DNA of 50,222 nt, taken from assembly GCA_028823955.1 (NCBI GenBank), contig JAPPFE010000033.1, positions 4,185-54,406 on the forward strand. The letters are read 5' to 3'. Below the pieces are notes generated by a model, which was given only the letters and a program-made list of their open reading frames with translations, was not told where the DNA came from and searched no databases. Source of the DNA: Candidatus Dadabacteria bacterium (GTDB lineage Bacteria; Desulfobacterota_D; UBA1144; Nemesobacterales; Nemesobacteraceae). Made by a program: the position numbers and the translations under genes. Below, piece by piece: positions 2,667-18,503 of this stretch (positions within the stretch are counted from its first letter, which is position 1; each line of letters opens with the position of its first letter).

Positions 2667-5600
2667 TCAAATAAACCAAGGGGTGCGCTCCAATACATCA
2701 TGGAGCCTGAACTCACCCTGCTGTTGACGCTGAAAGGCAGCTGTTAGATATGCAATATCTTTAGCGTATTTTGTAGTGATTGGCTCTGCGCACAGTGAGT
2801 CAGTGGATGCCCAGTTGAGCTTTGTCAGGCTCAAGATTTGGCGAGCGAGTGCATGATGATCAATCGGAGTTCGTGTCCTGTTAGTTGCCGGATGATCGAC
2901 ATAGACATTAACCTCCAAAGCCTGAGGAGTGCCCCGAATCTTACGATACTGATTATAGCCAGTTGTAGAAATATATATCTGATTGGGTGAACTAATTACA
3001 TAACGCCCACGTGCAACTGAACCATCCGTTTCGGTTCGCTGATCAAACAAGCGCACAGGGTGGTGTGAATTGATCCAGACGAAGACATATTTCCCGTTTG
3101 GTCGAATCTTACGTGCACCTCGTAGGATTGCGTCGCGGTCAGTTCGGCTGAATCGAGCCGAATAATGGAACCACACAGTAGGATGTTCTGACAGGTTGAG
3201 TTTCTCCATAGTCGATGATACGAGTTCCTCATAGTGATGTTCTCTTTCTGTATAGGGCACTGCACCATTACCACCAGAATAAAATTCCCACCGTCCATAG
3301 TGGTTAAACACATTGGCAAACCCCAGCATTCGGTCGTCTAATTGCTCCCGGCTACTCGTATAAGATAATCCGATGAAAAAATCCGCGTCAGGGATGGACT
3401 CCGGTAGTACCCAAGGAGTGACCCCGGTTTTAGCAACGATGTTGAGTGCGAGGTTGAGATCCTTGAAATCTGGATTCTGAAGCGTTGGAGTATCTACCAT
3501 CTGGCACGGTACGCCCGATTCAAGTAGTACACGTTTTGCTTTATAGTAAGGCGAATTCATATCATCGAGGGCGAATCCAGCTTCCGGCGTGTGAACCAGC
3601 ATCACTCGGTTAAGATTTGCGTTGCCGGTCCAAGACGGATACTCGCGGATCAGACGTCGGCATTCTTCATCAACGCTAATTCCGTTTGCGCTTGACACTT
3701 GGGCAAGTTTTATCCGCGTTGAAAATGTTCTTTCCGCACCACGATATCTATAAGTACCCGACTGAAGCCGGGAAACGAGATTACGCATCTGGCTTTCGAA
3801 ACCAGGCTTGACTACTGCGATGATGTCAAGGTCTCGTGGACTGTCTTCATAAGCACCAAATGAGGTGATTCCGTCGCGAATATTTGCTGTCGTCCGTCTC
3901 TTGGCGAACTCAACATCAGGTTCTTGTGTCTCCTGAATACGCCAAGCTCTTTTGCCGTCTCCATGCTCAAGCAGCTTGAGCGGCTTTGTATCAAGTAAGA
4001 TCTTTTTGTCGCCAAGGACCAACGGAAAAATTGTCTTTGCGAGATTAGAAACCGTGGAACTTATCCGTGATGCCCGAATTCGTGCGGCGCCCACTTCGGT
4101 TGACAACGCGGCCTTCTTGATTGCCTTGGAAAGGTTAAAAGCGGGAGCAGCCTCCTGAACAATTTCATCAATCATGTCACGCCGCAAGCTTGGAAATACG
4201 TGCTTTGCTGGCAAAGTATATTGTTCATCGCTGTCAAACAAACAAAGGGTTACATATTCAGTGTCTGCTTCGACTATTTGTCCCCTTATTAGCTTGCCAT
4301 TTAAAGATGCGAATGCTTTTAGTCCTTGCAACGGACTCGAACCGTACTTCGCAATAACTTTCTGAGCTGTCCAGATGCTTTGCACCTGCAATTTGTAATC
4401 AACGACGAGATAGTAGTTCCCATGATAAGATCTGATGCTTAAGGAATAAGCGGGAATATTTCTCAATATGTGCTTTAAAGAGGATGGCAGTTGCTCTTGG
4501 GTGTTTTTGAGATGAACTACGGCTTTTCCCTTGTCAAGACTGTCAATCACCCAGTTGTTTTCCTCCAGCTTATTGCAAAGCGCTTTAAGAAATATCTGGC
4601 GTTGTTCGTAACTGCCGTTCTTAGATGTATTTACTTTTAATCCCCTTAATTGATAAAGGTTTGAAAACTCATCAGAGACAATATCTTGTTCACTAGCTAA
4701 TCCTGTTGGTTTAACTTCACGACGCGACGCATCATTGCGCAGAACAACAATGGTTTCAGTCTCTTTCAAAACGTAGGTAGGGGATGGAAGACCAAGTTCT
4801 TTCATCTCGTCACGCATTCGGCGAGTGCCCTCACGGATTGCTTTGACGTAAGGATTACCCCTTGCATCTTTCATTGATCGGAACCAGTCTATGATCTTCC
4901 GGTTTCTCGGGAAACTCTCGAGCATCTGTTCAGTTAAAGAAAACTCTGCCGGTATGGATCTGGGCTGCAGCAGTCGTCCCGGACTCTTCACGACGAACGA
5001 GTCTGTGTATTTTTCACATGTGATCGGTTGCTGTGAGATTCCGTAGTCGCGATGTACTACCGCGTTTACTACTGCTTCGTCAATTGTTATATTGGGATAT
5101 TCTGGTTCTGAGGTGAATCCACCTTCAGTTGAACGGACTTCATATTTTTTGAAGAATCCCGATTCAGTTATAAAAACCCGAAAGTCGCGTATCTGTTTAG
5201 TCAGGGATCCATCAAAGTCTTTTTCAAAAGAGGGTGTCGGGCGTTCATCCTCATCTTCATACGAGCATTCAAAGCGCAGAAGACGTATATAGGACTGGGG
5301 TAATACACGTTGCGGATTGTAAGTAAAGAACAATAACCCGGCGTTTGTCCACTGGTAATCGTTAGGATTCCCGTTCACAGCGCCTGCATCTCGCAGTACC
5401 TGCTCTAATGGTCGGTTATCATTTCCTTCTATTCGACTTTTGATAAATTCTTCCAGTACAGCATTGTCTATATCGTCTGGATTAAATACTTCAGTTTGAA
5501 TGCGTTCGAAGTCTACTACTTTTCGATCACGTTTTACCTGCTCAAGCTCCGGTCCGCGCAATTGTATACTGGCGTAACCTCTCCTAAGCCATGCAGCATC

Positions 5601-6053
5601 ATCCTTTATGCGGTAACAAAATGTTCGCTCATTCGATTCAACCATGAACAATGCGATATTGACAGTGCTTCCCTTAACCGTCACCGGGTGCAGTTTTGAT
5701 TTTATCATGATTCCCGCCATGCCCTGCGGATTTAGAAGAGCGTTTTTCTCACCTTCACCGAGAAAATCAACGCCAGTAATTTGACCTGTCTTGCTGATTC
5801 CGAGAATGAGAAGACCACCATTGGCATTAGCAAATGCCGACATAGTTTTTTCAACGTGTTCCAAAACAGTTTGGAAACTTGTTTTTTGCATTTTTCCCTT
5901 ATTGTCAATTTGTCCCACCTGTTTGCGGTCGAAATGTTGACCTTCAAATTCATTGTCATCCGATACGCAGATGAAGTCCAGATGAGAGGTTGGGTCCGCA
6001 AAAACAGCTTTGAAGTCAGGTTTCAACATTCTATCGAGATGTTTTTCCGGCAA
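2667..6053 (-). CDS. Schlafen/AlbA_2-GHKL-Argonaute (MID-PIWI) fusion protein, probably non-slicing
   Basis: 1128 residues counted from a TTG at 6053; an ATG eight codons on (6029) is an equally good start, and a stop codon lies just upstream. Residues about 35-175 look like the AlbA_2 (Schlafen) domain, with E37, the FDRK motif at 41-44 and ANANGGLLILGI at 75-86. Residues about 180-430 resemble the COG2865 region, with E326, N330 and HRDYG at 334-338 as in GHKL-type folds. Residues 460-800 look like an Argonaute N/L1/PAZ-like segment. MID follows, with YYK at 836-838, Q851 and K875, matching the Y-K-Q-K 5'-phosphate pocket. PIWI runs from 884 to 1128, with the signature end LTKLNWAS and PITTKYAKDIAYL. 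The expected first catalytic Asp is Ser897 (IGLSY) and the second appears to be Asn995 (WINSHH), so slicing is probably lost. Inferred role: guide-loaded sensor with an attached Schlafen-type nuclease effector. The Argonaute assignment is from motifs by eye. Confidence 0.75.
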   Translation of the reverse strand: MPEKHLDRMLKPDFKAVFADPTSHLDFICVSDDNEFEGQHFDRKQVGQIDNKGKMQKTSFQTVLEHVEKTMSAFANANGGLLILGISKTGQITGVDFLGEGEKNALLNPQGMAGIMIKSKLHPVTVKGSTVNIALFMVESNERTFCYRIKDDAAWLRRGYASIQLRGPELEQVKRDRKVVDFERIQTEVFNPDDIDNAVLEEFIKSRIEGNDNRPLEQVLRDAGAVNGNPNDYQWTNAGLLFFTYNPQRVLPQSYIRLLRFECSYEDEDERPTPSFEKDFDGSLTKQIRDFRVFITESGFFKKYEVRSTEGGFTSEPEYPNITIDEAVVNAVVHRDYGISQQPITCEKYTDSFVVKSPGRLLQPRSIPAEFSLTEQMLESFPRNRKIIDWFRSMKDARGNPYVKAIREGTRRMRDEMKELGLPSPTYVLKETETIVVLRNDASRREVKPTGLASEQDIVSDEFSNLYQLRGLKVNTSKNGSYEQRQIFLKALCNKLEENNWVIDSLDKGKAVVHLKNTQEQLPSSLKHILRNIPAYSLSIRSYHGNYYLVVDYKLQVQSIWTAQKVIAKYGSSPLQGLKAFASLNGKLIRGQIVEADTEYVTLCLFDSDEQYTLPAKHVFPSLRRDMIDEIVQEAAPAFNLSKAIKKAALSTEVGAARIRASRISSTVSNLAKTIFPLVLGDKKILLDTKPLKLLEHGDGKRAWRIQETQEPDVEFAKRRTTANIRDGITSFGAYEDSPRDLDIIAVVKPGFESQMRNLVSRLQSGTYRYRGAERTFSTRIKLAQVSSANGISVDEECRRLIREYPSWTGNANLNRVMLVHTPEAGFALDDMNSPYYKAKRVLLESGVPCQMVDTPTLQNPDFKDLNLALNIVAKTGVTPWVLPESIPDADFFIGLSYTSSREQLDDRMLGFANVFNHYGRWEFYSGGNGAVPYTEREHHYEELVSSTMEKLNLSEHPTVWFHYSARFSRTDRDAILRGARKIRPNGKYVFVWINSHHPVRLFDQRTETDGSVARGRYVISSPNQIYISTTGYNQYRKIRGTPQALEVNVYVDHPATNRTRTPIDHHALARQILSLTKLNWASTDSLCAEPITTKYAKDIAYLTAAFQRQQQGEFRLHDVLERTPWFI

Positions 6054-6067
6054 AAATTAACCGGAAA
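6044..6067. promoter_or_regulatory. Inverted repeat overlapping the start region of the Argonaute fusion gene
   Basis: Perfect 7-bp arms TTTCCGG (6044-6050) and CCGGAAA (6061-6067) flank a 10-base AT-rich loop. The element covers the TTG start codon at 6053 and lies 15 bases before the alternative ATG at 6029. It could be an operator or a hairpin in the 5' end of the mRNA. No clear Shine-Dalgarno sequence is seen for either start, which fits translation being weak or controlled. Confidence 0.45.
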
Positions 6068-6202
6068 GGTAGTGCCCAAAGTAAAACAAGCTCCTCCCAA
6101 ATTTTCTATATGTTGTGTTAAAGAACAACTGGTCACATATATATTGAATGTGCGTCTTAAAAAGGAAATGTCAAGAGATATTAATAAAACTGGTTAGCAT
6201 CA

Positions 6203-6240
6203 TGCACTATTATGTGCAATGCAGAGATCAGAGAGATCAG
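6203..6240. repeat. Small inverted and tandem repeats between the divergent island operons
   Basis: The gap between the Argonaute gene and the DUF4143 gene (6054-6321) holds an inverted repeat TGCAC-N6-GTGCA at 6203-6218. It is followed at once by a perfect tandem 9-bp repeat AGAGATCAG (6223-6231 and 6232-6240). Such elements between divergent genes are often regulator sites, but no regulator gene lies next to them. The rest of the gap is AT-rich, with no convincing ORF or RNA gene. Confidence 0.35.
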
Positions 6241-6285
6241 ATGCTCTCGTAACGGAATATTGTTTTTGTTTAATAAAATGTTCTC

Positions 6286-6314
6286 TTGACTATTTTTACT
6301 CAATAATGTAATTT
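6286..6314 (+). promoter_or_regulatory. Possible sigma-70 promoter for the plus-strand island operon
   Basis: TTGACT at 6286-6291 and TAATTT at 6309-6314 are separated by 17 bases. The predicted transcription start would fall at or just before the ATG at 6322, giving a leaderless or nearly leaderless mRNA; consistent with this, no Shine-Dalgarno sequence precedes the ATG. The -10 match is modest. Confidence 0.4.
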
Positions 6315-6321
6315 TATACAT

Positions 6322-7575
6322 ATGAAATCTTTTCAGCGTTCTCAGGTTGCAGTGCTTTGCGACCGATTAGCCGAACCTCCCCACCATATTATTACCATTT
6401 TCGGGCCTCGCCAGACCGGAAAAACCACCATCGTGCAACAGGCGCTTCGGCGGATAGATGTCGGGAGCCGTTACTTGGCGGTTGATGAACCCCGGCCTCC
6501 AGGGCCGCGTGGTTCATACGATGAATCAGAAACAATCCCGGTTTTTTCATATGAGCGCGGCACGGACTGGCTGGTGCGAGTCTGGGAGGAAGCCCGCCGC
6601 GAGGCACAGCGATCCGGACGGGGATTCGTTCTGGCACTGGATGAGATTCAGAGAATTCCCCAGTGGTCACAGACCTTAAAGGGGCTCTGGGATGCCGACC
6701 GCGCCCAGGATTGTCCTCTGCACGTAGTTATTCTGGGTTCGGCGCCTCTGCTCATGCAGTCAGGACTTAACGAGAGTCTTGCTGGTCGTTTTGAACCTAT
6801 ACGCGTTGCGCACTGGTCCTTTGAGGAAATGTCCAATGCCTTCGGTTTTAGTTTGGATGAATACTTGTATTTCGGCGGCTACCCGGGCTCAGCCAAGTTC
6901 GTTCAAGATCTGGACCGGTGGCGCGCTCATATTCTCCAGGCTATCGTCATGTCTAGTATCGGCCGGGATATTCTCTCCATGACGCGGGTGGACAAGCCGG
7001 AACTGCTCAAACGGCTTTTCGAGCACGGAGCGGATTATTCAGGGCAGATTCTTTCGTACACCAAAATGCTAGGTCAACTTATGGATGCCGGCAACACGAC
7101 CACCTTAGCGCGTTACCTTGACCTGCTGTCGGATGCCGGTCTGCTCGTGGGTTTCGGGAAATACCATAATAAATCTCATCTTCGTAAGGGGTCAAGCCCC
7201 AAGTTAAACGTGCTCAACACCGCTTTGATGACGGTCGGTTCTGGGTATTCCTTTGAAGAAGCTATGGCAGACCGGACATTCAGGGGGCGCATAGTCGAAA
7301 GTGCGGTCGGTGCTCACCTGTCAAACACCGCGACACCCGATATCAGTGTTTATTACTGGCGGGACAAATCGCTTGAGGTCGACTTTGTCCTCAGGCGCGG
7401 CCCTCACCTTATTCCCGTTGAAGTGAAAAGCGGCCGGAAGTCTGTGCATCTCGGGGGGATTGAAGCGTTTAAGCGGAATTTTGGTGCCCGTCGTTCGCTT
7501 CTTGTCGGAGAAGGTGGCATACCGCTTCATGAGTTTTTCACGGTGCCCGTGAATCAATGGTTTGAGGAAAAATGA
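6322..7575 (+). CDS. AAA_14/DUF4143 family ATPase
   Basis: 417 residues. Walker A GPRQTGKTT (28-36) and Walker B FVLALDEIQ (102-110) form an AAA-type ATPase core. The C-terminal DUF4143 part carries an EVDFVL...PVEVKSG pattern with D354, E367 and K369, the arrangement of a PD-(D/E)XK nuclease-like fold common in this family. Proteins of this type are widespread and poorly understood, and often sit in defence or toxin-antitoxin neighbourhoods. The stop codon overlaps the start of the next gene by 4 bp (ATGA), so the two are translationally coupled and probably act together. It may be the first gene of the plus-strand island operon. Family assignment is firm; the role is unknown. Confidence 0.85.
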   Translation: MKSFQRSQVAVLCDRLAEPPHHIITIFGPRQTGKTTIVQQALRRIDVGSRYLAVDEPRPPGPRGSYDESETIPVFSYERGTDWLVRVWEEARREAQRSGRGFVLALDEIQRIPQWSQTLKGLWDADRAQDCPLHVVILGSAPLLMQSGLNESLAGRFEPIRVAHWSFEEMSNAFGFSLDEYLYFGGYPGSAKFVQDLDRWRAHILQAIVMSSIGRDILSMTRVDKPELLKRLFEHGADYSGQILSYTKMLGQLMDAGNTTTLARYLDLLSDAGLLVGFGKYHNKSHLRKGSSPKLNVLNTALMTVGSGYSFEEAMADRTFRGRIVESAVGAHLSNTATPDISVYYWRDKSLEVDFVLRRGPHLIPVEVKSGRKSVHLGGIEAFKRNFGARRSLLVGEGGIPLHEFFTVPVNQWFEEK

Positions 7576-10500
7576 ACAAAATCGTCCCACGCACGTGCAA
7601 GGAGGTTCTGCCACCGGATTCGGACCAGGATAAGGGTTCCCTGCCCCTGAAGGAATTTCGCTCCGCTATGGCCTATGTGCTGCTGGGCAACCCCGGTTCT
7701 GGCAAAACGACCGTGTTTGAGACTGAATGCAAAGCACTCGGAGATGACGCGTGTTTTATCACTGCGCGCGATTTTCTCGCTCTTGACCCGGACAGTCATC
7801 CCGAGTGGCGGGGTAAGACTCTTTTTATTGACGGACTTGATGAAATTCGCACCAGCGCGTACGACGCGCGCAGGCCTCTGGACAAAATCCGCAACCGCAT
7901 TGATAAGCTTGGAAAACCGCGCTTTCGCATCTCATGCCGCAGTGCGGACTGGCTGGGGGAAAACGATCTGAAACACTTGGCGCGTGTGTCGAAAGATTCC
8001 GCAGTAACTGTCCTGCTCCTTGATCCCCTGACGGACTCGGATGTCGTCAGTATTCTGGACAGGCATCCAGACATCCACGACTCTCAGGAATTCATCGCAT
8101 CGGCTTGGAAATGGGGGGTGAAAGGACTGCTGGCAAACCCACAGAATCTTAAATTGCTGATCAGGAGTGTAGTCAAAGATGGCAGGTGGCCGGAAAACCT
8201 TCTTGAGACTTTTGAGAAGGCCTGTTCACAGATGATCCGAGAGCACAATGAAGAACACAGGGAGGAGCAACAGTACACCACTTGCCAGCTTCTTGATGCC
8301 GCTGGATATCTCTGCGCCGTTTCGCTGGTTTGCGGGTCTGCCGGATTTGCGCGGGGTTGTGATTCCGCGGATGAAGATTATCTGGATCTTGACCGTTTGA
8401 ACTACGACCACCACGAGGCGCTCGGCGCTGCACTTTCAACTAGGTTGTTTGAGGCGGAATCCGATAATCGTCGTTTTGTTCCCGTTCATCGATACATTGC
8501 TGAATTTCTCGGCGCGCGCTGCCTCGCCCGCCTGATTGACAAAGGAGTTCCGCCCCGGCGGATACTCGCTCTGGTTACCGGAGAATACGGAGTCGTGGTC
8601 ACGCAGATGAGAGGTCTTTGCGCGTGGCTCGCAGTTCATTGCGAGAAAATCCGCGTGAACCTCATCAAGCGCAATCCTATCGGCATCTTTCTGTACGGAG
8701 ATATCAGCGTATTCTCGAATGAAGAGAATATGGCGCTCCTGGAAGCCCTGTGCCGTGAGAGGTACCGACCGGGTTCCGCATTCACGGTGGTCGATGTGTA
8801 TAGGACGCTTACCGCTCCTAAAATGGAATCTATCTTCAGAGATGTCCTGACTAGTCCCCGCCGTAGCGAACAGCATCAGGCATTAACCGAGTTTATATTA
8901 GACGTTTTGAAACAATATGAATTCATGCCGGGTTTTTCCGAGATTCTGCTAGAAATCGTCCGTGATAACACTTGGCTGCCTTACATTAATAAATTAGCCC
9001 TTGATACATTTATCTCTACTTGTCCGAAAGATTCGGAAATTAGGGGCGAACTCAAAGCATTACTGGCGGATATTCACGACGGAAGCATCTCCGATCCTGA
9101 CAACGAACTCCTCGGGACGTTGCTTTTGAAACTCTACCCCCGACAATTGCCTCCATCTGAGATTTGGGATTACCTTTACGAGCCGGTAGGTCGGGAGTCA
9201 GAAGGTACATACTGGCAGTTCTGGCAATCTGCTTTTTGCGACAGATTTTTAGAGAACCCAGAGGTGGAGGAACTTGAGGTGGAGGAACTTTTAGACAGTC
9301 TGTGGCGGCGGATTTCCGGTTTGCGAACCGCTTTTGATACTTGGCTCCTGAATGATCTTCCCCTCAGACTTTTGCTTTGCGGCCTACAGATGCATGGAGA
9401 CCGAATAGGCCGGGAACGTCTTTATGACTGGCTCGGTGTCGGATTGTCTGAGAATGTAAAGCATGACGAATATTGTCTGGAACCGATTAGTCAGATACGT
9501 GCTTGGCTTGAACAGTCTCCTGAGATTCAAAAGACTATTTTTGAAGAAGGTCTGAACCGATGTTCCGAATCCACTGAATTCAGTTATCACGCACTCAATA
9601 TACAAAGGCGGCTGTATGGAGCGACTCCTCCACCTGATTTTGGTCTCTGGTGCCTGAAAAAAGCTGTTGCAATGCCAGAGAGCAGGTCGCAAGCCTCCCG
9701 GTTTTTGCTCATACAGGCCGTTGAAGCGCACAAGTATCAAAACGGCAACGAAGGATTATCCCTTGAAGTCTTGGGGGAAACCACGAAAAACAGCGGAAAT
9801 TTATCTGACGCCCTGAAGTGCCTGATCGTGGAACCGGAGGTTCAGAATGAACTTCCGTGGAGAGACGGCGGACAAAGCCGTGAAGAAAAAGAGGAGAATG
9901 AAGATAGGCAATGGATAGACCATGTTTATACCAACAAGGATGCTTTGTGCGCAAACGTTGCCCACCCGGGACTGCTTCACGAAATCGCTGAGATATATTT
10001 TGGAAACTACTACTCCTGGCAGGATTACTACGGTCCGGAGAATATAAGGAAATGGCTTCCAGGCCACGGCGACTTGGTCAAGGCTGCACTTGTGGGACTT
10101 CGCAGGACAATTGAACGGGAGGATGTTCCTTGCACCGATGAGATTTTCGATCTTCTAGGTGAAGGCAGGACGCACTCTATAGGACTGCCTTTTCTTGCGG
10201 GCTTAGCAGAAGTCGAAAGAACGGAGTCGCAAGACTCCTCGCTATGGGAAGAGACCTGTATTCGCAGGGCGCTTCTTTTTTATTATCTTGCGCGCGTCAA
10301 CAATAGCTATGAGCCCAAATGGTACCTGCGGCTTGTTAAGACGCATCCTGAGATCGTGGCCGATACTCAGGCACGGTTTGCCGTTTTCGGTTTTCGAGGC
10401 GGCATAGAGGATATTCGCAAGCTTCGGGAGCTTGCCCGAAATAACAGGCATGCTCAAGTTGCCCACATCATAAGTTTGCCCTTGCTTCAATCTTTCCCGG

Positions 10501-11636
10501 TTCAGTGCACTCTGAAACAGATTCGGAATATGGACTATTTGCTCTGGGCGGCTCTGAAGTATGCCGACAGGGATGCCCTTGGGGAACTTATCGTCAGGAA
10601 GCTCAAGCTCGGGAGCTTGAACGTTGCCCTGCGCTCGCGCTGGCTTGCGGCGGGTCTGATTGTCAGCCCGGAAATATATAAAGACCAGTTAGAGGATTTT
10701 GTGCGAGGTCGGGAAGCCAGGGTTCAGCATCTAGCGACCTTTTTGACACTTGGGAATCCTCGGTGGTTCTTGTTGGATGAACTTGAAATTCCCGAATTGG
10801 AATTGCTGATCCGCCTTATCGGAAGTTACTTTGAACCTGTCTTAAGTCCCGGACTTGGGATCTCTGCGCCTGAAAAGCAGTTTTCCGGCCTTGTTTACGA
10901 CCTGATAGAACACCTTGCTACTGATGAGAGATCAGGCGATGCGCTTGACAGACTTCAAGCCGACCCGATGTTGGAACGTTGTCATTACATTCTGGCTAGG
11001 ATGTCGGAAGTTCATCGAACAAGCCGCAATGATGCCGGTTACCGACATCCTGACATCGTGCGGGCTTGCCAGACGTTCAGTAACGGAGCACCGGCCAACG
11101 CTGCTGACCTTGCGGCTCTTTTGGTGGACCGGCTGAGTGAGATCGCTGAAAAAGTTCAAACGGACAATGCGGATGAGTGGCGCAAGTACTGGAACGAAGA
11201 TTCCCATGGACAACCAGTTAGTCCCAAGCACGAAAATTCCTGTCGCGATATTCTACTCTCGGATCTGCGAGGACTTCTTCCGAAGGGCCTGGATGCCCAG
11301 CCCGAGGGTCAGTACGTCAGGGACAAGAGAACCGATATACTAGTTTTTTCATACGGAGATTTTCGTGTTCCCATAGAGATTAAAAAGAACGGAAGCAAGG
11401 ATTTGTTGAGTTCGCTCAGAGACCAGTTGATTGCTTTGTATACAAAAGATCCTGCCACCAGTGGGTACGGTATCTACTTGGTACTCTGGTTCGGAAAGAA
11501 ATACTCTAAACCACTGCCTTCCGGTAGGCGGCCGCACGATTTTCAGGAACTGCGGGAAAGGATTGAGTCCGTTTTGTCGGAAGATGAATCACTCAGGATA
11601 TCGGTCTGTGTCATTGATGTAAGCGAAGGCGAGTAG
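7572..11636 (+). CDS. Large STAND/NACHT-like NTPase with C-terminal PD-(D/E)XK nuclease domain
   Basis: 1354 residues. An N-terminal P-loop GNPGSGKTT (39-47) and Walker B TLFIDGLDEIR (83-93) resemble NACHT/STAND NTPases. A very long helical middle region without recognised motifs follows, of the size expected for a sensor of repeats. The C-terminal ~110 residues hold D1255, E1269 and K1271 (TDILVFSYGDFRVPIEIKK), a PD-(D/E)XK nuclease signature. A known plan in bacterial STAND immune proteins is sensor, NTPase switch and effector; here the effector appears to be at the C-terminus and the NTPase at the N-terminus, an uncommon order. A perfect 15-bp tandem duplication at 9261-9290 encodes EVEEL twice. 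The gene is coupled to the DUF4143 ATPase upstream and lies 12 bp before the radical SAM gene. The exact family is not recognised. Confidence 0.75.
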   Translation: MNKIVPRTCKEVLPPDSDQDKGSLPLKEFRSAMAYVLLGNPGSGKTTVFETECKALGDDACFITARDFLALDPDSHPEWRGKTLFIDGLDEIRTSAYDARRPLDKIRNRIDKLGKPRFRISCRSADWLGENDLKHLARVSKDSAVTVLLLDPLTDSDVVSILDRHPDIHDSQEFIASAWKWGVKGLLANPQNLKLLIRSVVKDGRWPENLLETFEKACSQMIREHNEEHREEQQYTTCQLLDAAGYLCAVSLVCGSAGFARGCDSADEDYLDLDRLNYDHHEALGAALSTRLFEAESDNRRFVPVHRYIAEFLGARCLARLIDKGVPPRRILALVTGEYGVVVTQMRGLCAWLAVHCEKIRVNLIKRNPIGIFLYGDISVFSNEENMALLEALCRERYRPGSAFTVVDVYRTLTAPKMESIFRDVLTSPRRSEQHQALTEFILDVLKQYEFMPGFSEILLEIVRDNTWLPYINKLALDTFISTCPKDSEIRGELKALLADIHDGSISDPDNELLGTLLLKLYPRQLPPSEIWDYLYEPVGRESEGTYWQFWQSAFCDRFLENPEVEELEVEELLDSLWRRISGLRTAFDTWLLNDLPLRLLLCGLQMHGDRIGRERLYDWLGVGLSENVKHDEYCLEPISQIRAWLEQSPEIQKTIFEEGLNRCSESTEFSYHALNIQRRLYGATPPPDFGLWCLKKAVAMPESRSQASRFLLIQAVEAHKYQNGNEGLSLEVLGETTKNSGNLSDALKCLIVEPEVQNELPWRDGGQSREEKEENEDRQWIDHVYTNKDALCANVAHPGLLHEIAEIYFGNYYSWQDYYGPENIRKWLPGHGDLVKAALVGLRRTIEREDVPCTDEIFDLLGEGRTHSIGLPFLAGLAEVERTESQDSSLWEETCIRRALLFYYLARVNNSYEPKWYLRLVKTHPEIVADTQARFAVFGFRGGIEDIRKLRELARNNRHAQVAHIISLPLLQSFPVQCTLKQIRNMDYLLWAALKYADRDALGELIVRKLKLGSLNVALRSRWLAAGLIVSPEIYKDQLEDFVRGREARVQHLATFLTLGNPRWFLLDELEIPELELLIRLIGSYFEPVLSPGLGISAPEKQFSGLVYDLIEHLATDERSGDALDRLQADPMLERCHYILARMSEVHRTSRNDAGYRHPDIVRACQTFSNGAPANAADLAALLVDRLSEIAEKVQTDNADEWRKYWNEDSHGQPVSPKHENSCRDILLSDLRGLLPKGLDAQPEGQYVRDKRTDILVFSYGDFRVPIEIKKNGSKDLLSSLRDQLIALYTKDPATSGYGIYLVLWFGKKYSKPLPSGRRPHDFQELRERIESVLSEDESLRISVCVIDVSEGE
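9261..9290 (+). repeat. 15-bp perfect tandem duplication inside the first STAND-like gene
   Basis: GAGGTGGAGGAACTT occurs twice in a row (9261-9275, 9276-9290), adding five residues in frame (EVEEL repeated). It looks like a recent slippage duplication in a variable helical region. Confidence 0.8.
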
Positions 11637-11648
11637 GGGAGATATTTT

Positions 11649-12557
11649 ATGAAAATACGAAAAGGGCCGGATGGCATCCATTTTTTTGATAGGACCTCAG
11701 GCACTAATCTGTTGTTGGATGAATTTGTTCCTTCTCCTGAGACTTGGAGCAAATCTCCAAGGCAAGTGTCCATTGCACTAACTAATGCGTGTGATCTTAC
11801 CTGCCCGCACTGCTACGCTCCAAAAACAAAAGCGATACTGGACAGCCAGCTTGTTAAACGATGGATGTCCGAGTTAGATGAACAAGGCTGTTTTGGTGTC
11901 GGTTTTGGCGGCGGGGAACCAACTTTGCATCCCGAATTGGTCGATATTTGCAATTATGGACACTCGGAAACCGGTTTGGCGATTACGATAACTACTCACG
12001 GGCATCATTTAAGCGATGAACTGTTGTCCCAGATTTCCGGAAGCGTGAATTTCATCCGCGTGAGTATGGATGGAGTGGATTCAACCTACGAATCGATCCG
12101 TAACCGTCCCTTTAATCGATTGCTTGTAATTCTAAAAAAGCTGGGTTGCTTTGTGCCATTTGGAATTAATTACGTGGTCAATTATAGAACTATTGATGAC
12201 ATTGATAAGGCTGCCCTTGTTGCTGAAGATTATGGAGCAAACGACCTTCTCTTGCTTCCCGAAGAACCGTTTGGCAGAGGCATGAGAATCGATAGCCAGT
12301 CGCTTGAACGGTTAAAGAAGTGGGTGCATGCGTATAAGGGAAACCTTCGGTTGTCTGTTAGTTCTAATTACGCAGCCGAGTTCTCAAGCATTATGCCACT
12401 TGAGAAAGAGCCCCTGGAAATGGCTTTTTCTCATATTGATGCTGAAGGTGTTCTGAAACGAAACTCCTTCGAGAATACTGGTTGTAAAATTAACGGCCTT
12501 GGTGTTATAGCTGCATTTAGGTTGTTGAATAAATACATGATAGGAGGTTATGCATGA
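11649..12557 (+). CDS. Radical SAM enzyme, island-associated
   Basis: 302 residues. The C-x3-C-x2-C cluster motif is at 48-55 (CDLTCPHC), followed by the GGGEP SAM-binding motif at 87-91 and a SMDG segment, all standard for the radical SAM superfamily core. The C-terminal part is short, with a single Cys in NTGCKING, and lacks a full SPASM cysteine set. The reaction and substrate cannot be told from sequence; plausible roles are peptide or protein modification or nucleotide-analogue synthesis as in viperins, although the viperin motif is not seen. Its stop overlaps the next small gene by 4 bp, so the two are coupled. The next gene could be a partner or a substrate. The gene is visibly more AT-rich than the STAND gene before it, suggesting a different origin. 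Confidence 0.85.
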   Translation: MKIRKGPDGIHFFDRTSGTNLLLDEFVPSPETWSKSPRQVSIALTNACDLTCPHCYAPKTKAILDSQLVKRWMSELDEQGCFGVGFGGGEPTLHPELVDICNYGHSETGLAITITTHGHHLSDELLSQISGSVNFIRVSMDGVDSTYESIRNRPFNRLLVILKKLGCFVPFGINYVVNYRTIDDIDKAALVAEDYGANDLLLLPEEPFGRGMRIDSQSLERLKKWVHAYKGNLRLSVSSNYAAEFSSIMPLEKEPLEMAFSHIDAEGVLKRNSFENTGCKINGLGVIAAFRLLNKYMIGGYA

Positions 12558-12946
12558 AAATTTGGCAGAGTTACGGTTCTGAACACTCAATGAATCTCGT
12601 GATGATTGGCAGGTTCAAACAGGAAAGCGATGCTGAAAGGATCAAGGGGGTTTTTGATTTCTTACTTGAGAAACTTCGGGACTTGCCTGATTCTGATATT
12701 AAAGAAGATCGATTTACCAGTGATGTAAGAGATTTGCTGCGTTCAAAAAATATACACTATCTGTATCCAAAGGAATTAACACAATTCTTGTACGATGTTT
12801 CTTTTGAGCACAATGGTAATGAGATACGAATCACCACCGACGAGGACGATGTTTCAGCAATGCTGAAAATCATGCTTGTGGAAGGGGCAAAGGTAGAAGT
12901 GTTTTCAGCGCACGATTATCCGGAATCCGATACGCCGAAGCGATAA
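12554..12946 (+). CDS. Small protein coupled to the radical SAM gene (possibly DUF6375 family)
   Basis: 130 residues, acidic, no signal peptide or membrane segment. The opening MKIWQSYGSEHSMNLVMIG recalls a small uncharacterised family that I believe is DUF6375, but I cannot confirm this. The start overlaps the radical SAM stop by 4 bp, and the next gene follows within 10 bp. Tight placement between the radical SAM enzyme and a nuclease-STAND protein suggests it is an obligate component, for example an adaptor or the substrate modified by the radical SAM enzyme. It contains no cysteines or extended glycine core like RiPP precursors. Confidence 0.7.
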   Translation: MKIWQSYGSEHSMNLVMIGRFKQESDAERIKGVFDFLLEKLRDLPDSDIKEDRFTSDVRDLLRSKNIHYLYPKELTQFLYDVSFEHNGNEIRITTDEDDVSAMLKIMLVEGAKVEVFSAHDYPESDTPKR

Positions 12947-12954
12947 AGTTGACC

Positions 12955-15900
12955 ATGCTTGATTGGCAGAAATTCAAAGAACTTACTGGAGATGACGCTA
13001 AAAACTTCGAGAAGTTATGCCGAGGCATTGTGCGCAGAAGATTCGGGAAGTTTGGGCCGCTTATTGAACGAAAGAATCAACCGGGTGTCGAGTTCTATAT
13101 CCGCCTTGATCGAGATTGTTCTGAGTTAGGTGATTCTGGGGACAAGATCGGATGGCAGTGTAAGTGGTTCAAGCTAACAGTAGACGGGAAATTAACTTCT
13201 TCTGCAAAGAGCCAGATTCTACATTCCCTTGATATGACGAATAAGCACGTTGAAGGTTTAAATAGTTGGATACTCTGGACTCCCTTCACTTTAGCTAGAG
13301 CAGACCAAGAATGGTTTTATCGTCTACAATCTGGTTACAGTTACAAGTTGTGTTTGTGGAACCACGATGACGTTAATAGTTATTTGCAAGGTCCGGCGCT
13401 TGAGCTAAGGAATGCATACTTTGGCGAACTCGCGTTAACTGAAGATCTTTTAAAAGATCGGCATTGTTTGTCCGTGGCTCCAATAAAAGGACGATGGATT
13501 AAAGAGGTTCATCATCAGGTTCGGGTCGAAAGACAGTTGAGGCAATACCTCGGTGAACCTTCAGCTTGGGATGAGTTCAAAGAAGCTGGTGCTTCACTGT
13601 CAGAAGCTTATGAGACGATAAAAAGAGATGTTAAAGAAGCTGTTTATTCCGATTGGTCTGAAGACCTGAAGAGTTTTCTGCTGTTTTGCTCAGAGTGCTT
13701 GAAGTTCACTGAATATTTTACAAATACTCTAAGTGCGGAGGACATCGAATCTGTTAACACCATGCTTGATCAGGTTAAATTGCTTGATGTACAGATTCAT
13801 ACCGTCCTACGGCAAACAAGAAGTAGGAATTTGCCACTTGCCATAGAAATTACTAACTCTCTTGCTTATATAAAGGACATTAAGAATCTGCTGGAAGAGG
13901 CATCGGAATATTTGTCCTGCTCTTTTGTCGCCGTGCTAGCGGATGCAGGGGGTGGAAAAACCCAGATGGCGGCTGAACTAACAGCGGTTCAGTCGGACCG
14001 CCCTGCGGGAATTTTATTGCATGGGCGTCGCTTTAAGAAGGGGGGTAGTTTGAATGATCTTGCTAGGGACATCTCATTTTATGGAAAAGAGGTGCCAAAT
14101 TTTCAGGCGTTGCTTGTTGCCCTTGATGCTGCGGCTGATCGAGGCAACTGCCGTTTACCCATTATTATCGATGGTCTGAGCGAGGCAGAAGAACCCCGGG
14201 AATGGAAACCAGAGCTTGAAACAGCGCTGGAATTGCTCAAGGATTATCCAAATGTATTGTTTATATGCACATTAAGAACTGGTGAGCGGGAGCGACACAA
14301 GTTTGTCCCTCGCCGTTCTAATGAAGTGCGTAGCCGAGAAGTTTTCGCGCAGATGGCTTTGCCTGAAGACTGTGTTTGTCTTGAGTGTGAGGGCTTTGGT
14401 GATTTAACCATGAAGGCTGTCAAAAGCTACTTTCAACATTATAAGATCAAGGCTGATTTAATCCAGATCCCGAAAAATTTCTTTGGACACCCCTTGAACT
14501 TGCGGATTTTTTGCGAGGTCACTAATAGAAAGGCCGACAAGACAGTAACCGTTACCAGCTTCCCTGCCTCGATCACAACCTTATTTAGTAAGCAAATCGA
14601 ATACGTAGCTAAAAGGATATCTGAGTTCACTAATTTCCAACAACCTTATAGTGAAGTTAACGTTCAGTCGGCTGTTTTCCATCTTGGCAAGAAGTTATGG
14701 GAGTCGAGGGAGAGGCAGATTCCTGAGGCGGATTTGCTTCATTCACTTGATCAGTTAGGCAGAAGCTGGGATGAGAATATTATCAATTTACTGGCACAAG
14801 AAGGAATAATATTTCGCGATCCAGGCAATATCCCTGGTGTATATTCAATCACCCCGGTTTTTGATCAACTGGGCGGATATATCATTGCTGATGCTCTGTT
14901 GAGGGAAAACCAAGATGATCCCACTTTTGATTGGATACAGAATCAAACCAGCTTAGACATGCTGTTTGGAGAAGGCGAGTCAAATCATAGCTTGTCCCAA
15001 GATATTTTACATTCCTTAGCAGCCCTTGTTCCTCGATATTCAAATAATCAGAAACAATTGTGGATGATTGTTCCGAATGAATACAAAGAAACAGTAGTTG
15101 AGTTATCAACATTGATTGATGTTGATAACTTCTGTGATGAAACCAAAGAAGAATACAGAAAGCAGATGTTACAAAAGGGACTAAGTTATCCTACACTACG
15201 TCGTTTAGAAAGGGTTCGTACTTCCGGAAATCACCCGCTCAACGCAGATTTCCTGAGTGATTTATTAAAAGATCTATCCGTGGCGGAAAGAGACCTTTCA
15301 TGGACTGAGTTTCTCAGAAGAAATCCTGATTATTCTGATTATATGTTGTCCGAAATCAAATATTTTGAGCAACGCTGGAAGTCTGACGACATACTTAAAA
15401 CTGAAGGAGACAGGCTTCAGGCTGTATGGGTTAGCTGGCTACTTACGTCAACATCTATAGAAATACGAGACCGTTCTACAAGAGCTCTTTATTGGTATGG
15501 TAGAAGCTGCCCGAAAAATTTGTTCGAAATGACTATTTCTTCGCTAGACATCAATGATCCCTATGTTCCTGAAAGACTTCTAGCCGCTAGCTACGGTGTC
15601 GTTATGTATTTTGTTTATAAAGAGATATGTATGGAAGAAATGAAATGGCTGGTCACCCGTCTATACGAGCATATGTTCTACGAGCCGGCGAAAAACCCGA
15701 CAACACACCTCTTGGCTCGGGACTACGCAAGCAAAATAATAAACATAACAAGGGACCTGCTGCCGGAAGCATTATCCGAAGAACAACTGGCAGATTCTTT
15801 ACCTCCCTATGCTTCCATGCCGAGACAGAAGTGGGGCTCCGCAGATAAGAGTGCGTTAGGACTTGGATATATGTCTCCTTTGGGGATGGATTTTGAAAAC

Positions 15901-17109
15901 TATACCATTGGAAGATTAGTCCCAGAACGTTCACCTTACGATTTTGACCATCCTGATTACCAAGACGTTCGAGCAAAGATATTGTGGCGTGTAAAGCAAC
16001 TTGGATGGGACAAGGAGAACTACGCCGAGGTTGATAACCGGATCGCAACTAGTTCCATGTATAACAGTCGAATGAACCGTCCCAAAACCGAGCGCTACGG
16101 GAAGAAATACTCTTGGATTGCGTATTATGAAGTAGCAGGCCAACGCCTTGATGAAGGGATCTTAGAACTATGGGGAGAGCGATTTGCCGCAGACATCGAT
16201 CCAAGTTTCCCGGAACCAATTTATGAGAAAGAGTTACAAACGGCAGGATACTTAGGTAGTTCTGGAGTGGACACGTCGGATTGGATAGAAAACTCGGGTT
16301 TACCTGAGATAAGCGACCTGACAAAAATAGAGACTCTCAATGGTGTATCTGGGCCGTGGATTCTGTTAGATGGTTATGTTTCTGAAGAATCAGGAGAAAT
16401 GGACAGAAACTTTTATTTTACTTGTAGGGCATTTTTGGTTGAGGAGGAGTCTTCAAAGAAATTAGTTTCTTACTGGGAAGATACTGAACAGCGAAAAATT
16501 AGACTGCCAGAGCAAATTCAGACTGGATATTTATATTCTGGGGAATTGAACGGATTGTTCAATAGCTACCCTGACTCAGATGCAGAGATCGAACTTTTTG
16601 TAGGCACAAAAGTTAAAAAACGAAAACAAAGGATATTTATTGAGAAAAAGGGAATTCCGACCTTAACAGATAAAGAAAAACTGATAGATGTCGAGATTCC
16701 AGTCAAAGAGTCAATAGAAGTGTGTAATCCAGTGGCTAGGTTCTTTTGGAGTGGAGAAGATACTGCTATGCCGAGTGTTGGAGCAGACGTTCTGACTTCA
16801 AGACTTACGAAGACGCTCGGTCTTAAAATTGACCCAGTATCTTTAGATTTTTTAGATATTGAGGGCAATCTAGCCGCACGAAACATATCTTTAAAAGGTC
16901 GGGTGGATGATAACCGTCGGAGTTTGTTCTACATTCGTGAAGATTTGTTAATTAAGTTTATGACCGAAGCAAAACTGGACTTGGTTTGGTTCGTGCGAGG
17001 AGAGCGAAGAATTGCCAAATTTTATCGTGTCCATACATCAGATGATGTAGATGTTACATATAAGGAGTTTAGGTTTTGCAATACAATGAGAAGGGGACTA
17101 TGTACTTAG
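12955..17109 (+). CDS. STAND/NACHT-like NTPase with N-terminal PD-(D/E)XK (Mrr-like) nuclease domain
   Basis: 1384 residues from the ATG at 12955; a TTG two codons earlier is possible. Residues about 5-150 look like a restriction-endonuclease fold: NFEKLC near 17-22, PGVEFY at 43-48 and GWQCKWF at 66-72, where QxK forms the last part of the active site. The P-loop ADAGGGKTQ (329-337) and Walker B LPIIIDGLSEAE (401-412) follow, then a NACHT-type segment with GHPLNLRIF. A long C-terminal half, probably the sensor, has no recognised repeats. This nuclease-NTPase-sensor order matches the general plan of Avs-type antiphage STAND proteins. No Avs subtype is assigned. It follows the radical SAM and small-protein genes directly. 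Low GC and many ATA/AGA codons set it apart from housekeeping neighbours. Confidence 0.75.
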   Translation: MLDWQKFKELTGDDAKNFEKLCRGIVRRRFGKFGPLIERKNQPGVEFYIRLDRDCSELGDSGDKIGWQCKWFKLTVDGKLTSSAKSQILHSLDMTNKHVEGLNSWILWTPFTLARADQEWFYRLQSGYSYKLCLWNHDDVNSYLQGPALELRNAYFGELALTEDLLKDRHCLSVAPIKGRWIKEVHHQVRVERQLRQYLGEPSAWDEFKEAGASLSEAYETIKRDVKEAVYSDWSEDLKSFLLFCSECLKFTEYFTNTLSAEDIESVNTMLDQVKLLDVQIHTVLRQTRSRNLPLAIEITNSLAYIKDIKNLLEEASEYLSCSFVAVLADAGGGKTQMAAELTAVQSDRPAGILLHGRRFKKGGSLNDLARDISFYGKEVPNFQALLVALDAAADRGNCRLPIIIDGLSEAEEPREWKPELETALELLKDYPNVLFICTLRTGERERHKFVPRRSNEVRSREVFAQMALPEDCVCLECEGFGDLTMKAVKSYFQHYKIKADLIQIPKNFFGHPLNLRIFCEVTNRKADKTVTVTSFPASITTLFSKQIEYVAKRISEFTNFQQPYSEVNVQSAVFHLGKKLWESRERQIPEADLLHSLDQLGRSWDENIINLLAQEGIIFRDPGNIPGVYSITPVFDQLGGYIIADALLRENQDDPTFDWIQNQTSLDMLFGEGESNHSLSQDILHSLAALVPRYSNNQKQLWMIVPNEYKETVVELSTLIDVDNFCDETKEEYRKQMLQKGLSYPTLRRLERVRTSGNHPLNADFLSDLLKDLSVAERDLSWTEFLRRNPDYSDYMLSEIKYFEQRWKSDDILKTEGDRLQAVWVSWLLTSTSIEIRDRSTRALYWYGRSCPKNLFEMTISSLDINDPYVPERLLAASYGVVMYFVYKEICMEEMKWLVTRLYEHMFYEPAKNPTTHLLARDYASKIINITRDLLPEALSEEQLADSLPPYASMPRQKWGSADKSALGLGYMSPLGMDFENYTIGRLVPERSPYDFDHPDYQDVRAKILWRVKQLGWDKENYAEVDNRIATSSMYNSRMNRPKTERYGKKYSWIAYYEVAGQRLDEGILELWGERFAADIDPSFPEPIYEKELQTAGYLGSSGVDTSDWIENSGLPEISDLTKIETLNGVSGPWILLDGYVSEESGEMDRNFYFTCRAFLVEEESSKKLVSYWEDTEQRKIRLPEQIQTGYLYSGELNGLFNSYPDSDAEIELFVGTKVKKRKQRIFIEKKGIPTLTDKEKLIDVEIPVKESIEVCNPVARFFWSGEDTAMPSVGADVLTSRLTKTLGLKIDPVSLDFLDIEGNLAARNISLKGRVDDNRRSLFYIREDLLIKFMTEAKLDLVWFVRGERRIAKFYRVHTSDDVDVTYKEFRFCNTMRRGLCT

Positions 17110-17139
17110 CTAGCCAAGCTTTTCGGGAGGAATATTCTA

Positions 17140-17679
17140 ATGTCCAAGAGGGGATTCGACCATTTCTTTGGTATGCAAAGGGCAAAATCTATGCTATTCC
17201 TTGCAAGAGAACTAAAAGAGACTACCGATATCAAAAAGCAAGACCCTCTCTTGTATGAGGGAAGAATAGTAACAACTCCAGCTCTTTTCACACTAGCTAC
17301 AGAGCTTGCACTTAAAGCACTGTATTGCCAAGAAACAAAGAGCAATAAAGCTGAAGCCACTCACGACTTGATAAAGCTGTTTGAGCAACTAGAGGAAAAT
17401 ACACAAGAAGAACTTGAAGCAACATTCGAAGAGTTAGGGAGAAACACGCGAGGACGACTTGAAGCAGAGTGGCCGAAGCCACCATCAAAGATACGATATG
17501 TTTTGCACGAGAGCAGAAGAACCTTCGTCTCTTGGCGGTATCCTTCTAGATCTTCTCTTACATGTTACACTGGGGAACTCGATGAAGTAATTTCTACAAT
17601 AATCAAGATTTATGACAAAAGAGAGAGGGATTCTCGGCCAAGCATATATTATAGTTCCCACCTAAGAGTATTGGTTTAA
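17140..17679 (+). CDS. HEPN-domain protein (first of two)
   Basis: 179 residues, all predicted helical. The segment LATELALKALYCQ...THDLIKLFEQL (about residues 51-83) is the pattern of HEPN domains that accompany nucleotidyltransferases and Abi systems. No classic R-x4-6-H RNase motif is seen, so it may be a non-catalytic or partner HEPN. A ribosome-binding site GGGAGGA lies before the ATG. It follows the second STAND gene by 30 bp on the same strand and is probably the last gene of that operon. Its end overlaps by 4 bp the end of a second, oppositely transcribed HEPN gene. Confidence 0.65.
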   Translation: MSKRGFDHFFGMQRAKSMLFLARELKETTDIKKQDPLLYEGRIVTTPALFTLATELALKALYCQETKSNKAEATHDLIKLFEQLEENTQEELEATFEELGRNTRGRLEAEWPKPPSKIRYVLHESRRTFVSWRYPSRSSLTCYTGELDEVISTIIKIYDKRERDSRPSIYYSSHLRVLV

Positions 17680-18503
17680 AACAGCGTTTTAGTAAGTTTC
17701 ATAACACCATTGATAAGGTCAGTTACTTCATCTTCTGAAGGTTCTTTTTTCTTGTTGTGGTCACATAAATTTCTAAGGTCACTGAGATATTGATTTGATC
17801 TCCATTGAGGAAGATCAATTACATTGGCATTTTTCAGTGCTTCATTAAAGTCTGCAATTGTAGGGGTCTTTTTCTTGATTTCGATTTTATGGTTTTTGCA
17901 GACCTCTGCAAGGTGCTTTTCCATTACAACCCCAGCTATTGCACCCCCCGCCCTGAGAAAACCATGATTCACCAATGCCATTGCGGCTTCCAATTCAGAA
18001 TCGAATAGATTTGCCTGGACAATTTGTTTGATATTGAAGAGCGAACTTTCAAAGCGTTTACTACTGGCTTTGACTATAGCAAGTTGCTGTTTGAACCGGG
18101 GGATTGCTGCGTCTATGCCAACGATAACTTCCTTAACTTCCTTTTTTGTCCCACTACCACGAGTTTCCACAAGCTGAAGTCCCATAAGATAGTCGGATAT
18201 CCGATAGCTTTCATAGGTTACATTATTACGTGTCTTTGGATTCTCGTAATGGCCAACGAAATCATCTAGACGATCTGGAAGTAATTGACGTATAAATGTC
18301 TTCGCTTCTGAATACCAAGTTTCGTATTCCTCAGAAAAATTCGGCAAACTATCTAGGAACTCTGAGGCTTTATCTTTTAATTCTTGTCTAACAAGATTTC
18401 GATAACCTTCTGGATCACATTCATAACGCATAGCGCGAAATAAATCTTCGCCCGTTTTTATAAGCTTTTCTAGATCATTCTTGTGCCGTTCTAAGTTTTT
18501 CAA
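17676..18503 (-). CDS. HEPN-like protein with R-x4-H motif (second of two)
   Basis: 275 residues. The N-terminal half is helical and unrecognised. The C-terminal ~100 residues (AGGAIAGVVMEKHLAEVC, then LRNLCDHNKK with R244 and H249) match the HEPN/DUF4145-type fold, including the R-x4-H motif that forms the RNase active site in catalytic HEPN proteins. It is convergent with the other HEPN gene (4 bp overlap), has its own promoter side at 18504 onwards, and forms the right-hand end of the island. HEPN RNases commonly act as toxins in abortive defence. Whether it belongs to the STAND system or is independent is not known. Confidence 0.65.
   Translation of the reverse strand: MKNLERHKNDLEKLIKTGEDLFRAMRYECDPEGYRNLVRQELKDKASEFLDSLPNFSEEYETWYSEAKTFIRQLLPDRLDDFVGHYENPKTRNNVTYESYRISDYLMGLQLVETRGSGTKKEVKEVIVGIDAAIPRFKQQLAIVKASSKRFESSLFNIKQIVQANLFDSELEAAMALVNHGFLRAGGAIAGVVMEKHLAEVCKNHKIEIKKKTPTIADFNEALKNANVIDLPQWRSNQYLSDLRNLCDHNKKKEPSEDEVTDLINGVMKLTKTLF

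Follow-up and report, generated by a model that had tools for sequence, protein, structure and literature searches.

The 50,222-nucleotide stretch of Candidatus Dadabacteria DNA analyzed here (contig JAPPFE010000033.1, positions 4,185 to 54,406; hereafter the window) carries at 11649–17109, on the forward strand, three genes for a radical SAM enzyme, a small protein of the Pfam family DUF6375 and a STAND NTPase with an N-terminal nuclease. We find that these genes form a real, conserved, mobile and co-evolving unit, and that this unit represents a new, widespread variant among the Avs (NLR-like) systems. The radical SAM gene (11649–12557, 302 amino acids; Pfam PF04055, E-value 2.5e-15) overlaps the DUF6375 gene (12554–12946, 130 amino acids; Pfam PF19902, 1.6e-44) by four nucleotides (ATGA), and the STAND gene (12949–17109, 1386 amino acids from a TTG start codon) follows directly, within 10 bp. 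The true start of the latter is probably the in-frame ATG at 12955 (MLDW...), which is the start used by a relative (locus L003). A first-pass annotation of the window, made from the sequence alone, had proposed a tightly packed three-gene cassette with exactly these coordinates and a shared AT-rich composition; the latter is borne out by a GC fraction of 0.41–0.44 at 12–17 kb, compared to approximately 0.52 in the flanking core genes. The protein of about 130 residues that it had left unnamed is a clear member of DUF6375.

DUF6375, being specific, was used as the search marker. We scanned one genome per species for 84,980 species, seeded with DUF6375, and counted linkage from the DUF6375 side. 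This yielded 68 DUF6375 loci, with a radical SAM gene directly upstream in 67/68 (a 4-nt overlap being present in 45 of these 67) and a STAND gene directly downstream in 63/68. With linkage this regular among independently found loci, the three-gene arrangement is not due to chance. Two of the five loci without a STAND gene lie at a contig edge (L058 and L075), and in a third (L064) a fragment is fused to an unrelated gene. The remaining two, from a Candidatus Uhrbacteria metagenome-assembled genome (MAG; L067, 10001–10396) and from Ensifer (L068, 10001–10411), keep the radical SAM and DUF6375 genes, followed in Ensifer by a transposase-like gene; such pairs may be remnants of decayed cassettes or else a module of two genes that works with another effector.

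The species scan places the cassette in 13 named phyla, to which plasmids add the Deinococcota. Among 72,556 plasmid records, 16 encode DUF6375 (from Vibrio, two cyanobacteria and two Deinococcus) and the remaining ones do not; a related radical SAM gene (46–53% identical) lies upstream in all 16, and the STAND gene lies downstream in 15, its place being taken by a transposase gene in the other. Of 5,426 complete E. coli genomes, 26 contain a full copy that is approximately 81–82% identical to the Xenorhabdus copy. Three of these copies were inspected and occupy three different chromosomal sites: one is next to yeeN, and two are accompanied by an integrase at a tRNA gene, tRNA-Phe in one case and tRNA-Thr in the other. 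No copies were found in the phage collection, and the only viral occurrence is one viral contig, which together with a Rhodothermaceae MAG (STAND protein 68% identical) contains the nearest relatives of the cassette in the window. Pairwise distance correlations among the three proteins are 0.72, 0.86 and 0.80, the highest being that between the radical SAM and STAND proteins, and none of 1000 shuffles reached such values (best shuffle 0.21). The three proteins thus evolve in parallel, as expected of genes inherited en bloc.

The STAND protein had been described in the first-pass annotation as Avs-like with an N-terminal PD-(D/E)XK nuclease, which is correct and can be sharpened to Avs2-like. 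Six Avs2 models are among the PADLOC matches listed (best E-value 1.5e-111), one of them covering residues 4–1358, and model PDLC02162 aligns over nearly the full length. A profile built from 16 cassette STAND proteins matches the solved Avs2 structure 9o4e with an E-value of 8e-87, and the protein from the window alone aligns with this structure over 479–962 and 1001–1068. As it scores 274.3 bits against the curated NCBI Avs2 equivalog (NF041813), for which the cut-off is 1000, it is Avs2-like rather than a canonical Avs2. The predicted nuclease effector domain of QxK type (approximately residues 1–160, 12949–13428; E21, E48, Q70-C-K72) is the most conserved part of the protein among 60 cassette members, with E48 invariant and the QxK lysine present as K in 53 and as R in 7. 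A homologous NTPase core with, judging from its motifs, intact Walker sequences (approximately residues 301–560, 13849–14628) contains a Walker A motif GGGKT (K337) and a Walker B motif IIIDG (D408), of which the GK and the D are invariant in the same 60 proteins. The Walker lysine becomes K335, the residue pointed out in the first-pass annotation, when counted from the ATG at 12955. Mean conservation falls from 0.61 in the nuclease and 0.56 in the NTPase to 0.32, the lowest value, in the last 226 residues (approximately 1161–1386, 16429–17106). This region is the probable sensor, a role suggested by Avs biology, and the gradient fits a protein that joins an effector and a switch to a variable sensor.

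Phylogenetic analysis places the 60 cassette STAND proteins on one side of a branch with a support of 100, and seven other Avs2-like proteins on the other. Plasmid-encoded Avs2-like relatives, at most about 30% identical, occur without either companion in Haloplanus, Staphylococcus, Moraxella, Rhodothermus, Vibrio (avs2) and Halobacterium, and as a transposon-split fragment in Paraburkholderia. Predominantly companion-free STAND homologues, the pattern named beforehand as counting against a cassette, are thus not what we observe for the close family: its members are accompanied by both genes, which are missing only from the distant Avs2 relatives inspected. Among 387 related genomes surveyed, five gave any STAND match, too few for statistics on companion loss; one of these, a fairly close homologue (G096), sits at a contig end. 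The STAND reading frame is split in E. coli APEC20/16 (L098, 13352–17384) and in L024, which may reflect sequencing error or decay.

In the radical SAM enzyme, the cysteines C48, C52 and C55 already recognized in the first-pass annotation form a CX3CX2C motif that is invariant in 58 homologues. The only further cysteine conserved in more than 70% of these is C101 (98%), and the alignment of the homologues contains no set of cysteines for an auxiliary [4Fe-4S] cluster in the SPASM/twitch-like C-terminal domain of the kind that SPASM maturases typically have. The AlphaFold2 (AF2) model has a predicted local distance difference test (pLDDT) score of 92. In the PDB, its fold is best matched by two peptide maturases, SkfB and SuiB (query template modeling (TM) scores of 0.74–0.78), with DesII, viperin, MoaA and BlsE at lower TM-scores; among proteins of solved structure, SkfB is also the nearest in sequence (5.5e-17). 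Membership of the viperins, which synthesize antiviral nucleotides, was considered and rejected: the enzyme reaches 52.5 bits against the curated viperin model, with a cut-off of 180, and aligns only over residues 40–148, while the PADLOC models for prokaryotic viperins (pVips) match residues 40–147 (2e-19), which is the generic core only. These results weaken the earlier suggestion that the enzyme makes a chain-terminating nucleotide. The radical SAM reading frame is split in L047 and L053, again by sequencing error or decay.

The AF2 model of the DUF6375 protein shows a ferredoxin-like body (pLDDT 85.8), preceded by an N-terminal tail, MKIWxxYGSEHS, that is predicted to be disordered (pLDDT below 50 for residues 4–10) and yet is nearly invariant. 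Conservation peaks at residues 1–12, with K2, W4, G8, E10, H11 and S12 invariant in 59 sequences, and the mean column entropy is 0.55 bits for residues 2–12 versus 2.11 for residues 22–110. As the tail is near-invariant in spite of the low pLDDT, it must be constrained by something beyond the fold of the protein itself. Overlap of the reading frames was rejected as the cause, the overlap being just 4 nt. Most simply, a partner protein holds the flexible tail constant, and the radical SAM enzyme is the likely partner since its gene is nearly always present, even where the STAND gene is absent. A role of DUF6375 as the variable phage sensor is unlikely, as the protein is highly conserved while the C-terminus of the STAND protein varies. 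Searches for remote homology to known fold families gave no match below an E-value of 0.01. Runs of NPE repeats, variable in number, are found at the C-terminus of DUF6375 in Acinetobacter and Sphingobacterium (L043, L054, L058, L062).

We consider it an evenly balanced proposition that the cassette is a mobile anti-phage module in which DUF6375 is processed by the enzyme via its tail and then sets the activity of the STAND protein. The latter would combine receptor and effector, as in Avs2: by analogy with Avs homologues, binding of a ligand by the variable C-terminal region would lead to NTPase-driven oligomerization and to DNA cleavage by the PD-(D/E)XK domain. DUF6375 would serve the radical SAM enzyme as a partner or substrate, most likely engaged via the tail (M1, K2, W4, G8, E10, H11, S12), and the processed DUF6375 could then dock on the STAND protein and license or restrain its nuclease. 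Anti-phage activity, the enzyme–substrate relation and the direction of regulation are what we infer here from Avs biology and the anatomy of the proteins, whereas the unit with its conservation, domain content, clade structure and co-evolution is observed. More tentatively, the readiness or target recognition of this NLR-like nuclease may depend on a modification installed by the radical SAM enzyme in the tail of DUF6375, for example a cross-link between K2 and W4. SuiB joins a lysine and a tryptophan within its peptide substrate, and the invariant K2 and W4 could be an analogous pair, which we regard as a lead only. The fold matches to the peptide maturases and the radical SAM–DUF6375 pairs without a STAND gene support an interaction between enzyme and tail, and modification of DUF6375 is a tentative but better idea than a chain-terminating nucleotide.

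Several observations weigh against modification of the tail. The conserved partner of the enzyme is a folded protein of 130 residues, unlike a short precursor peptide with a leader and a core, and the conserved tail lies at its N-terminus; the auxiliary-cluster cysteines that SPASM peptide maturases normally have are missing from the enzyme; and since viperin, MoaA, BlsE and DesII match it as well, albeit with lower TM-scores, the fold does not fix the class of substrate. In the chief rival reading, the tail would complete the active site of an enzyme that makes a small molecule. DUF6375 would then be an enzyme subunit, and the product, a modified nucleotide (viperin-like or other) or another small molecule, would be read by the STAND protein or by a phage polymerase. 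An invariant flexible tail could indeed close an active site, and both the pVip matches and the presence of viperin, BlsE and DesII among the structural matches are in line with such chemistry. As the enzyme falls short of the curated viperin cut-off, and the viperin matches are confined to the generic core with query TM-scores below those of SkfB and SuiB, we judge this alternative unlikely, though a serious contender.

Also unlikely is modification by the enzyme of the STAND protein, or of a macromolecule of the phage or host, with DUF6375 as a chaperone or targeting adaptor. The ferredoxin fold of DUF6375 is adaptor-like and the strongest distance correlation is that between enzyme and STAND protein, but this value may merely reflect less noisy distances from longer proteins, and the radical SAM and DUF6375 genes are the tighter pair, given their overlap in most loci and their persistence without a STAND gene in L067 and L068. 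That the cassette serves in another conflict, for instance as an anti-plasmid system or a toxic element that retains plasmids, would agree with its frequent location on plasmids and integrative islands; the homology to Avs2 and the repeated residence in defence islands make this improbable. An ordinary Avs2 with two passenger genes dispensable for defence seems very improbable to us. The STAND protein does have every part of an autonomous Avs2, other Avs2-like proteins work on their own (PMC12931631), and the plasmid relatives described above occur without the companions; mere passengers, however, would hardly be expected to be linked near-universally in at least 13 phyla, to evolve in parallel and to be so strictly conserved.

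The surroundings of the cassette in the window lie between dnaK and aceE (2667–18503). On the reverse strand, 2667–6053 encodes a fusion of a Schlafen AlbA_2 and a RecG-C-like domain with an Argonaute PIWI region; it matches the PADLOC prokaryotic Argonaute (pAgo) model PDLC02394 over its full length (1405 bits) and is a known pAgo architecture. A same-strand run then starts at 6322 with a gene for an AAA_14/DUF4143 protein (6322–7575, forward strand; PADLOC PDC-S01), which overlaps by 4 nt the gene for an EruA-like NACHT protein (7572–11636, forward strand). This protein scores 842 bits where NCBIfam asks for 1000, and its gene is separated from the radical SAM gene by 12 bp. Immediately 3′ of the STAND gene are a gene for a protein with a weak HEPN domain (17140–17679, forward strand; 2.4e-4) and, on the reverse strand, one for a 275-residue protein without a confident family (17676–18503). 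The NACHT gene was rejected as a fourth cassette gene, as it has no homologue near other cassettes, and so were the two downstream genes, which have none in other cassette loci. None of the window neighbours, including the AAA_14/DUF4143, NACHT and pAgo genes, recurs beside other cassettes, apart from one weak match to pAgo (L028), and therefore the three genes are the right unit.

The host genome measures 1.68 Mb. Within the set of 58 species of its phylum, neither DUF6375 nor the cassette STAND protein was found in the 57 others, which argues that the cassette was acquired horizontally. The dnaK–aceE interval is a variable defence hotspot of the genus: in sister species it measures 226 bp (G004) or 13.5–18.4 kb with differing content (G002, G003, G006, G007), including matches to Gabija, Thoeris, Septu and PARIS-type systems. 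A gene that starts like the one at 17676–18503 lies at the same aceE-side edge in a sister genome (L103, 17339–18142). In G007 the hotspot contains a pair resembling, as read from its sequence, a phage Gp37/Gp68-type (DUF5131) protein and a three-Cys-motif partner (L101, 6060–8054), unrelated to the cassette radical SAM enzyme. Inspection of the genes flanking other cassette copies identified type I restriction–modification, GmrSD, YhcG-type PDC-S02, HerA, TIR and AbiC-like families; the cassette thus repeatedly resides in defence islands.

PADLOC and NCBIfam contain no model for DUF6375 and none specific to the cassette radical SAM family. The open-access literature, to which our search was directed rather than to subscription papers and preprints, does not mention DUF6375 and nowhere combines Avs2 with a radical SAM enzyme; a broader search of it gave a different radical SAM conflict system as the sole related one, and the main text of DefensePredictor (2026) mentions neither Avs nor rSAM. 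The cassette is therefore provisionally undescribed, as had been suggested at the outset, in every library searched and in the open-access literature. No prokaryotic relatives of NLR receptors are better studied than the Avs proteins, and those with nucleases have been described as acting by direct binding of phage proteins. We know of no Avs or NLR system in which an adaptor modification installed by a radical SAM enzyme serves as immune control. That a widespread Avs2-like lineage is accompanied by a radical SAM enzyme and a dedicated small protein implies that immune sensing or effector control involves an additional chemical step; the close copies in E. coli make the question directly testable in standard laboratory hosts, and the cassette suggests where to start looking for a function of DUF6375.

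Among known systems, the vWA-MoxR FtsH ternary conflict systems resemble the cassette in combining a radical SAM enzyme with a small neighbouring gene, whose product the enzyme was proposed to modify, in a system dependent on nucleoside triphosphates (PMC7159879). They differ in having a vWA/MoxR core and no Avs2-like nuclease, and DUF6375 is not mentioned in their description. With the pVips the cassette enzyme shares the radical SAM fold with its CX3CX2C motif and the defence setting, but it falls below the curated cut-off, aligns in the core only, and is found with DUF6375 in every case and with an Avs2-like nuclease in most. SkfB and SuiB, maturases of ribosomally synthesized and post-translationally modified peptides (RiPPs), provide its nearest sequence relative of solved structure and its best folds, whereas the cassette differs from them by the missing auxiliary-cluster cysteines, the folded 130-residue partner and the gene context with a nuclease-STAND protein. 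The closest comparison is with Avs2 (AVAST type 2); phage-protein recognition and nuclease action of Avs1–4 are summarized in PMC12931631. The STAND core and helical arm are homologous over approximately 800 residues, a conserved GKKYxWIAYYE region is shared in addition, and the N-terminal nuclease is like that of several Avs2-like relatives. In contrast to Avs2, which is a single-gene system, the cassette STAND proteins form a separate clade far below the curated cut-off, with a variable C-terminus of their own and two companions in nearly all loci.

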